A stretch of DNA of 34,192 nt from Prosthecobacter sp. (GTDB taxonomy: Bacteria; Verrucomicrobiota; Verrucomicrobiia; Verrucomicrobiales; Verrucomicrobiaceae), in contig NZ_JAQSEA010000076.1 of the NCBI RefSeq assembly GCF_029946185.1, forward strand, positions 26,056-60,247. The letters are read 5' to 3'. Of the stretch, positions 18,243 through 25,481 are shown one piece after another (the first letter of the stretch is position 1; the number at the start of each line of letters is the position of its first letter). The translations under genes and the position numbers were made by a program. The notes beneath the pieces were generated by a model that was given only the letters and a program-made list of their open reading frames with translations, was not told the DNA's origin and ran no database searches.

Positions 18243-18298
18243 GTCAAGGGGTCAAAGATTCTCAAGACGGTCAGCCACCCCTTGACCTCTCCTTGACC
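18243..18298. repeat. GTCAAG/CTTGAC repeat cluster between the two sulfatase genes
   Basis: The 100-base spacer contains GTCAAG (18243), GTCAAA (18251), TCAAGAC (18262) and GGTCAG (18269) on the left, and CTTGACC at 18281 and 18292 on the right. GTCAAGGGGT (18243-18252) and ACCCCTTGAC (18277-18286) are perfect 10-bp inverted repeats. The same unit recurs in the spacer before hisF. It may be a hairpin processing or attenuation site in the sulfatase transcript, or a protein-binding array. No T-run follows, so it is not a typical intrinsic terminator. Confidence 0.6.
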
Positions 18299-23674: not shown

Positions 23675-24613
23675 ATGACCCAGCTCGATCAGCTCAAGCA
23701 GTACACCGTGGTGGTCGCCGACACCGGCGACTTCGAAGCCATGAAGGCCTACAAGCCTCAGGACGCCACGACCAACCCCTCTCTCATCCTCCAGGCTTCG
23801 CAGAAGGCTGAGTACAAGACGTTGTTCGACAAAGCTGTGGCTGATGGCAAATCCGGCGGCGTGAGCGCTGTGATGGACAACCTCGTGGTCGCCTTTGGCC
23901 TGGAAATTCTGAAAATCGTCCCCGGTCGTGTTTCGACAGAAGTGGATGCCCGCCTGTCCTTCGACACTCAGGCCAACATCGACAAGGCTCGCCAGTTGAT
24001 CGGCATGTATGAAAACGCCGGTATTGGTCGCGAGCGCATTCTGATCAAAATCGCCTCCACTTGGGAAGGCATCAAAGCCGCTGAAGTGCTGCAAAAGGAA
24101 GGCATCAACTGCAATCTGACGCTGCTTTTCAGCCTGGCTCAGGCCGCGGTTTGCGCCGAAGGGGGCATCAAGCTGATCTCTCCCTTCGTGGGCCGCATCC
24201 TCGACTGGCACAAGAAGAGCACGGGCACGGATTTCGCGCCGACGGAAGATCCAGGCGTACAGTCCGTCACGCAGATCTACAACTACTACAAACACTTCGG
24301 CTACTCGACCGAGATCATGGGCGCCAGCTTCCGCAACAAGGGCGAGATCACTGAACTCGCCGGCTGCGACCTGCTGACCATCAGCCCCGGCCTCCTGGGT
24401 GAACTGGCTTCGAGTGAAGAAGCTCTCGCACCGAAGCTCAATGCCGCCAACGCGAAGTCCCTCCAGATCGAAAAGATTGGCAGCGATGAAAAAGCTTTCC
24501 GCTGGTTGTTCAACGAAGACGCGATGGCGACTGAGAAAACCGCCGAAGGCATTCGTAACTTCGCGAAGGACATCGTGAAGTTGGAAATGATGGTGGCGGC
24601 GGCTTTGGGCTGA
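23675..24613 (+). CDS. tal: Transaldolase
   Basis: The 312-residue enzyme transfers a dihydroxyacetone unit between sugar phosphates in the non-oxidative pentose phosphate pathway. It matches the TalB-type (class I) family in length and motifs: [11 protein letters not shown] near the start, [13 protein letters not shown], Lys125 in [11 protein letters not shown] as the Schiff-base lysine, [11 protein letters not shown], and [11 protein letters not shown]. The start ATG at 23675 gives the usual TalB N-terminus; the in-frame upstream extension is proline-rich and atypical. The leader is pyrimidine-rich with no Shine-Dalgarno motif. It lies 46 bases downstream of the lactonase and is followed by the GTCAAG/CTTGAC array before hisF. 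Confidence 0.97.
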
Positions 24614-24621
24614 GCCCACAA

Positions 24622-24716
24622 GCGTCAAGAAACGGTCAAGGCACAGTCAAAGAGGTCAAGGCGTTCGCGTCTTGACCACCTTGACCAATCCTTGACCTCT
24701 TGACCATTACTTGACT
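24622..24716. repeat. Symmetric GTCAAG / CTTGAC array forming a large inverted repeat upstream of hisF
   Basis: Left half: GTCAAG or GTCAAAG units begin at 24624, 24635, 24646 and 24655. Right half: CTTGAC(C/T) units begin at 24671, 24680, 24691, 24699 and 24710. The two halves are mirror complements around the 10-base centre GCGTTCGCGT (24661-24670). Outward spacing is 9, 11, 11 on the left and 9, 11, 8, 11 on the right. The array fills the whole tal-hisF spacer. It could fold into an imperfect hairpin of about 40 bp, or bind a protein on one face of the helix given the near-helical-turn spacing. The same units occur at 18243-18298. Confidence 0.75.
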
Positions 24717-24722
24717 GTTCCC

Positions 24723-25481
24723 ATGCTGACCAAACGCATCATCCCCTGTCTCGACGTAAAGGAAGGTCGTGTCGTCAAAGGCACGAAATTCCTGCAACTG
24801 CGTGACGCCGGCGATCCGGTGGAATGTGCCCAGGTTTATAACGCGCAGGGGGCGGATGAACTAGTTTTCCTCGACATCACGGCGAGCCATGAGGAGCGCA
24901 AAACGATGGTCGATGTGGTCGCACGCACGGCCGCAAGCTGCTTCATGCCCCTGACCGTGGGAGGTGGCATTCGGACCGTGGCCGACATGCGTGAGATGCT
25001 GCTGGCCGGTGCCGACAAGGTGGGCATCAACACAGCCGCAGTGAAGACGCCGCATGTCATTGACGAGGCCGCCAATGCTTTTGGCTGCCAGTGCTTGGTG
25101 GTGGCGATCGATGCGAAGCGCAACGAGCGCGGATCGTGGACGGTTTATACGCATGGGGGCCGAAATGCGACCGAACTGGATGCGGTGGAATGGGCCGCCG
25201 AGGTGTGCAGGCGCGGCGCGGGTGAAATTTTGCTGACGAGCATGGACTCCGATGGGACCAAGGCAGGTTATGATATCGCTCTAACCCGCGCCGTGAGTGA
25301 GGCGGTGTCCATTCCCGTCATCGCCAGCGGCGGTGCCGGCAATATCGACCACATGGTGGATGTGCTGCGCGATGGGAAGGCTGACGCCGTCCTCGCGGCA
25401 AGCATTTTTCATTTTGGTGAGTACACCGTGGGAGACGTGAAAAAGTACCTGGGGGCACATGGCCTGCCGGTAAGACTGTAG
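24723..25481 (+). CDS. hisF: Imidazole glycerol phosphate synthase cyclase subunit HisF
   Basis: The 252-residue (beta/alpha)8 barrel closes the imidazole ring from PRFAR using ammonia delivered by HisH, in histidine and purine-linked biosynthesis. Key features are [12 protein letters not shown] with catalytic Asp11, [17 protein letters not shown], Asp130 in [24 protein letters not shown] and [11 protein letters not shown]. Length is typical. I chose the ATG at 24723 because the family starts [11 protein letters not shown]; an in-frame TTG at 24711 lies inside the repeat array. No other his gene is in the window, so hisF is isolated here. The array immediately upstream may affect its expression. 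Confidence 0.97.

Follow-up and report, generated by a model that had tools for sequence, protein, structure and literature searches.

A mirrored GTCAAG/CTTGAC array between tal and hisF and its dispersed relatives in Prosthecobacter

Introduction

What is a 92-base symmetric array of hexamers, filling most of the gap between tal and hisF in a Prosthecobacter genome, and is it there for the sake of hisF? The array occupies positions 24624-24715 of the window (the whole 34,192-nucleotide stretch of DNA analysed here), out of the 109 bases that separate the two genes (Table 1). An initial annotation described it as nine copies of a short unit in mirror-image halves around a 10-base centre, with spacings mostly of 9 and 11 bases, and this is right provided that a mutated GTCAAA copy is counted. 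We asked whether the array has relatives in its own genome, in the genus and in the phylum, where these lie relative to genes, and which of the readings proposed for it fits best.

Results

The array is exceptional by its clustering and folds strongly

The array is made of three exact and one mutated (GTCAAA) copies of GTCAAG, a 10-base centre and five exact copies of CTTGAC. Counted outward from the centre, the start-to-start spacings are 9, 11 and 11 bases on the left and 9, 11, 8 and 11 on the right. The stop of tal ends 10 bases ahead of the array, and the ATG of hisF given by our gene call lies 7 bases past it; a mechanical list of open reading frames puts the hisF start at TTG 24711 instead. 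Over the whole window CTTGAC is not enriched (19 found vs 17.8 expected), and the exceptional feature is its clustering, not its number. An excess of the unit across the genome, to which the initial annotation had looked, is seen for clusters, which exceed their controls (see below); single units were counted in the window, where they occur at the expected number. The array also folds far better than shuffled sequence on both strands: -44.6 kcal/mol vs a shuffle mean of -23.4 on the plus strand (z -6.47) and -50.5 vs -29.7 on the minus strand (z -6.05).

Several familiar forms could be set aside. The best match to a known Rfam RNA scored 21.3 bits vs a curated threshold of 79, and nothing exceeded its threshold. 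CRISPR arrays have repeats of 24-48 bases and unique spacers, whereas the units here are 6 bases long with linkers mostly of 2 or 5. A promoter with TTGAC as its -35 element was also rejected: the scan found none, and the position would be wrong.

Table 1. Coordinates of the array, its neighbouring genes and other features of the window.
Feature	Positions	Strand	Remarks
Single open frame of about 5,266 codons	649..16446	-	codon-usage gene call
Smaller second family copy	18243..18297	.	one exact GTCAAG and two exact CTTGAC; flanked by sulfatase-family genes (PF00884 in both)
tal (transaldolase)	23675..24613	+	TIGR00874, 474.5 bits; gene call
Left arm	24624..24660	-	units 24624-24629, 24635-24640, 24646-24651 (GTCAAA, one mismatch) and 24655-24660; CTTGAC on the minus strand
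Centre, 10 bases	24661..24670	.	sequence GCGTTCGCGT
Right arm	24671..24715	+	five exact CTTGAC at 24671, 24680, 24691, 24699 and 24710
hisF	24723..25481	+	TIGR00735, 386 bits; gene call; orthologues

The array belongs to a family dispersed through its own genome

The genome that carries the window (G000; 6.19 Mb in 317 contigs, 95.9% complete) contains 77 matches to CTTGAC N0-8 CTTGAC N0-8 CTTGAC vs 0 for a reversed-pattern control. The many intergenic clusters anticipated by the initial annotation were found with the mirrored pattern GTCAAG-GTCAAG-CTTGAC, which gave 110 matches (106 in the scan of 39 genomes described below) vs 2 for its reversed control; matches overlap inside arrays, and their number is not the number of elements. 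The opposite order, CTTGAC-CTTGAC-GTCAAG, gave 0 (control 1).

Element statistics were drawn from 597 kb fetched around hits, out of the 6.19 Mb. This sample holds 53 clusters of at least three exact units (gaps of at most 60 bases), 35 of them two-sided and 18 one-sided, several of the latter lying at contig ends, where they were probably cut. All 35 two-sided clusters have GTCAAG on the left and CTTGAC on the right. A de novo search of the same 597 kb for mirrored hexamers ranked GTCAAG first, with 24 clusters, followed by its shifted forms, and the next unit that does not overlap GTCAAG reached 2 clusters.

The second copy in the window lies in the gap of a sulfatase pair (Table 1). An element is present in this gap in G000 and G008 and a single unit in G012; no unit was seen in six other orthologous gaps, that of G002 being covered in part. 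At L106 (6552-7120, G000:C303) a tandem GGACGA array, broken by an assembly gap (a run of N), lies in the 525 bases that separate a one-sided GTCAAG array from a one-sided CTTGAC array. At L087 (2614-3578, G000:C146) GTCAAG and CTTGAC arrays flank a stretch with two small candidate genes that resemble, by eye, an antitoxin and a PIN-type toxin.

Elements are extragenic and lie close to gene ends

With genes called by an in-house codon-usage script rather than a standard caller, the midpoints of all 35 two-sided elements fall outside called genes, and L118 reaches 21 bases into the end of a gene; among one-sided clusters, L108 is inside a called gene and L098 half overlaps one. Both neighbours are known for 32 two-sided elements, of which 20 lie between tandem, 7 between convergent and 5 between divergent genes; the background of gaps of at least 60 bases comprises 139, 52 and 58, respectively, and elements are not significantly fewer in divergent gaps than this background (5/32, p 0.38). 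In tandem pairs the upstream stop is closer than the downstream start for 17 of the 20 elements (p 0.003), and the nearest gene 3' end, where one exists, is a median of 14 bases away (n 27). The relation to gene boundaries thus stands, but the coupling to the start of hisF that the initial annotation envisaged is not supported: the element adjoins many other genes and, in tandem pairs, lies nearer their stops.

Units are shared, whereas spacings are not mirrored and arms are interchangeable

Among 182 spacings between same-strand neighbours, 76 are of 8 bases, 44 of 11 and 15 of 9, with none at 12 or 13; for a second hexamer found in relatives, TGGAGT (see below), 27 of 28 spacings at the loci examined are of 8 bases. 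Peaks at 8 and 11 do not support the helical-turn spacing suggested by the initial annotation. Nor is the mirrored spacing of the window copy general, the first left spacing equalling the first right one in 3 of 27 elements vs a shuffled mean of 4.6. The 2-base linkers are CT in 48 of 76 cases, and CACCC, CACTC or CATTC are the commonest 5-base linkers (18/44). In 19 of the 35 elements the centre includes GTCG or CGAC, vs 13% of random stretches from the same loci, the centre of the window copy being without either. Three of the 35 have an intact core that reads GTCAAG-GCTCGACT-CTTGAC on one strand or the other; the core is altered in others, and close variants of it occur in G028 and G030. 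The centre motif and the shared core together argue for a common ancestor of the elements. An alignment of three orthologous tal-hisF copies shows variation at 4 of 48 unit columns vs 6 of 24 linker columns, a difference that is suggestive only (p 0.07).

Folding is a general property of the family, with a median z of -3.3 over the 27 elements that have at least two units per side. When the arms of different elements were swapped, the fraction of chimeras that equalled or surpassed the element itself in stability averaged 0.51 (Wilcoxon p 0.97, 27 elements) and was 0.57 for the window copy; few elements, for example L111 (0.00), clearly beat their chimeras. The units alone can therefore account for the fold and, the spacings being unmirrored too, there is no general sign that the arms co-evolve as a stem; both tests of a long registered hairpin were negative. 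A run of five T was found within 20 bases on either side of none of the 35 elements (a run of four in 7), and no terminator-like site was predicted in 24500-24800 of the window; the array is therefore not an ordinary intrinsic terminator. These tests weaken the registered-hairpin and intrinsic-terminator readings and may be compatible with a hairpin whose arms slip.

The tal-hisF gap carries different mirrored designs in different congeners

A search of 39 genomes gave 30 hisF loci; the 17 with tal upstream were kept and the 13 without a tal end seen were dropped. Assigned by eye (the default label of the script being the purine/T-run type), the gaps of the 17 congeners fall into four designs: GTCAAG in five (G000, G008, G012, G031 and G057), a purine/pyrimidine hairpin with a T run in nine, TGGAGT in two (G001 and G017) and GGATGA in one (G011). 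Conservation in close relatives, the last expectation of the initial annotation, is thus borne out in some congeners.

On the best tal + hisF tree the gap types need 7 changes, the minimum possible being 3. Shuffled gap types need 7.3 on average and as few in 107 of 200 trials, so that gap type is no better clustered on the tree than at random. The well-supported sisters G016 and G011 have different gap types, and if well-supported branches only are counted, the purine type must have changed 3 times and GTCAAG and TGGAGT 2 times each; this is a gene tree with weak support at 7 of its 14 inner branches, and the gap may have recombined. Judged by eye, the bases adjoining the tal stop look alike whatever the gap type, suggesting replacement of the central part of the gap. 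Four mirrored designs in one gap point to a turnover of words within an architecture that is kept.

Related arrays in the genus and the phylum

Over the 39 genomes of the genus, G000 included, the mirrored GTCAAG pattern has 549 matches vs 32 for the reversed control. Abundance varies widely, with 171 matches in G008, 88 in G057, 12 in G006 (74% complete) and none in 15 of the 39. The opposite order has 12 matches genus-wide (reversed control 20); arrays of this order in G026:C58, G008:C10 and perhaps G021:C627 appear real. A mirrored match occurs in 31 of 387 genomes of the phylum, and the maximum in the 383 outside the genus is 3, a level also reached by the reversed control; the search required exact units, which decayed or diverged relatives would escape. 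The GTCAAG family is seen above background only in this genus among the phylum genomes scanned. A scan of a named collection listed at least 80 loci, of which 8 were inspected: among these, one locus of Verrucomicrobiaceae (L277) is two-sided, and at one of Verrucomicrobiales (L262) two arrays face each other across about 250 bases.

Other words have the same layout. Across the 39 genomes TGGAGT has 304 mirrored matches, vs 5 for the reversed control and 3 for the opposite order; G029 has 77 of them, G016 73 and G000 none. At the loci examined, 1 of 10 pairs of successive 2-base linkers is a match. When 110 kb of intergenic sequence from 13 congeners was scanned de novo, 9 mirrored-unit arrays were found vs 0-1 in five Markov controls, four of the nine being GTCAAG arrays at tal-hisF gaps that had been fetched on purpose; the others are built of GTTGCC (three, in one stretch of G001), CGCAAA and TGGAGT. 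A purine-rich left arm was considered as a general rule and rejected, being found in 6 of the 9 and contradicted by the three GTTGCC arrays. The stretch L178 (4623-6214, G001:C29) combines mirrored GTTGCC/GGCAAC arrays with a long AACTCGGC tandem run. One very long array, at G033:C6:419322-419665, has about 25 GTCAAG-bearing units of 8 bases, then some 77 bases and then about eight CTTGAC units of 9 bases, and resembles a variable tandem repeat.

Discussion

The scattered family, and the other designs found in the same gap, argue for a REP-like element of gene ends and not for a special control of hisF. We therefore propose, at even confidence, that the array is one copy of a REP-like dispersed family of extragenic palindromes whose probable role is that of an RNA barrier at 3' ends. 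Each element consists of tandem hexamers, GTCAAG to the left and CTTGAC to the right, joined mostly by 2- or 5-base linkers and often placed just past a stop; in the transcript, its hairpin would block 3' exonucleases and/or help to end transcription between genes, and new sites may arise by copying of the ancestral core. The array occupies the place that is taken in nine congeners by a T-run hairpin with the look, by eye, of a terminator, and its role after tal is probably similar. Since every GTCAAG is able to pair with every CTTGAC, the arms can gain or lose copies by slippage while a hairpin is kept.

The main rival holds that the array works as DNA, each hexamer being the site or half-site of an oligomerising DNA-binding protein, such as a nucleoid protein or global regulator, that the inward-facing arrays load from both sides. 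The hexamer is indeed kept while linkers drift between consecutive TGGAGT units, orthologous copies are suggestive of the same, the arms of elements are not matched to each other, and such a role was proposed for the Geobacter arrays in the available text of the paper that describes them (PMC2700814). However, (i) spacings of 8, 9 and 11 bases do not hold one face of B-DNA, (ii) sites near stops and between convergent genes would be unusual for a regulator and (iii) the hexamer differs by species at the same gap, so that the protein would have to change too. We regard a DNA site array as possible but doubtful, and we would say the same of its corollary that the fold is a by-product.

The family might instead be a mobile miniature element of the REPIN or MITE kind, moved by a transposase in trans and devoid of host function. 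The dispersed copies, the shared centre and the patchy presence at orthologous gaps would all be accounted for, and G000 has 18 matches to Y1 transposases and one RAYT-like Y1 gene (L338/L161, G000:C38:3514-4575; NF047646 match below cut-off) with CTTGAC and GTCAAG in its flanks. Yet just 2 of the 18 Y1 loci have a cluster of at least two units in the fetched flanks. The RAYT-like gene is matched in 34 of the 39 genomes, with a fragment and weak hits in G057 and no match in G006 or G033, and its terminal repeat (GGGGTCAG..TGCAA..CTTGACA) differs from the arrays; with its own repeat different and the gene absent from some genomes that have arrays, it was rejected as the driver and kept as a weak lead only. 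GTAG lies within 12 bases of 1 of the 35 elements (random 7%) and CGTC of 7 (random 17%), neither being enriched, and no target-site duplication could be defined. We thus consider a mobile origin without function unlikely. A neutral origin by slippage during replication and by copying templated on hairpins, without any selected role, is very unlikely: it would suit the long tandem expansions (8-base unit runs in G033 and G018) and the interchangeable arms, but alone it fails to spread one hexamer in one arm order over dozens of sites or to keep hexamers while linkers drift.

Beyond the REP-like reading of this one array, there may be end-of-gene elements that form a class by their constant architecture, mirrored arrays of one short word, with the word swapped between species and the dominant word of each genome being read by a fast-changing partner, protein or RNA. 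We consider this quite unlikely, but if it were true, partner and words would co-evolve and whole sets of gene ends would switch word together. What is surprising in the data is that congeners differ in the word found at one gap. The four designs in the tal-hisF gap amount to a natural experiment on the function of end-of-gene repeats, and GTCAAG and TGGAGT are two words that differ sharply in abundance from species to species within one genus.

Comparison with known systems

Like Rho-independent terminators, the elements are placed after stops, and at tal-hisF 9 of the 17 congeners have a T-run hairpin in the gap (by eye); unlike them, all 35 elements are without a run of five T within 20 bases. 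With REP, BIME and REPIN sequences, as these are presented in the available text of PMC3733652, PMC12306157 (RepRanger) and PMC3116915, the arrays share a multicopy, extragenic and palindromic nature and families that are specific to a genome. They differ from them in consisting of many hexamers rather than a single stem-loop of 20-40 bases, in the GTAG/CGTC tag, which is not enriched, and in that no tied RAYT transposase was found among the 18 Y1 loci of G000.

The initial annotation could name no known form for the array, but a similar one has been described. In a literature search that covered few subscription papers, only the Geobacter/Pelobacter and REP papers were relevant; the available part of the Pelobacter paper (PMC3543383) describes no such array. 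Of the descriptions found, the closest concerns the 'predicted global regulator binding sites' of classes 1-3 in Geobacter metallireducens (Aklujkar et al. 2009, PMC2700814). According to the available text of that paper, their units (GTTGCTYN, TCTCCGTS[Y] and MTYCTGA) are multicopy tandem repeats of 7-9 bases 'mostly found in pairs', which in classes 1 and 2 lie on opposite strands at a variable distance; the sites are proposed to be of the IHF/HU type, and a fourth class is likened there to multicopy sequences of many genomes. The arrays described here come from another phylum and their units are unlike the published consensus, the comparison being one of consensus and description and not of alignments. 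The likeness lies in multicopy tandem units, spaced here mostly by 8, 9 or 11 bases, and in mirrored arms, found in 35 of 35 two-sided clusters, and the mirrored GTTGCC arrays of G001 resemble the published class 1 consensus, GTTGCTYN. The family ties an unnamed feature of this genus to one already noted in a Geobacter genome paper.
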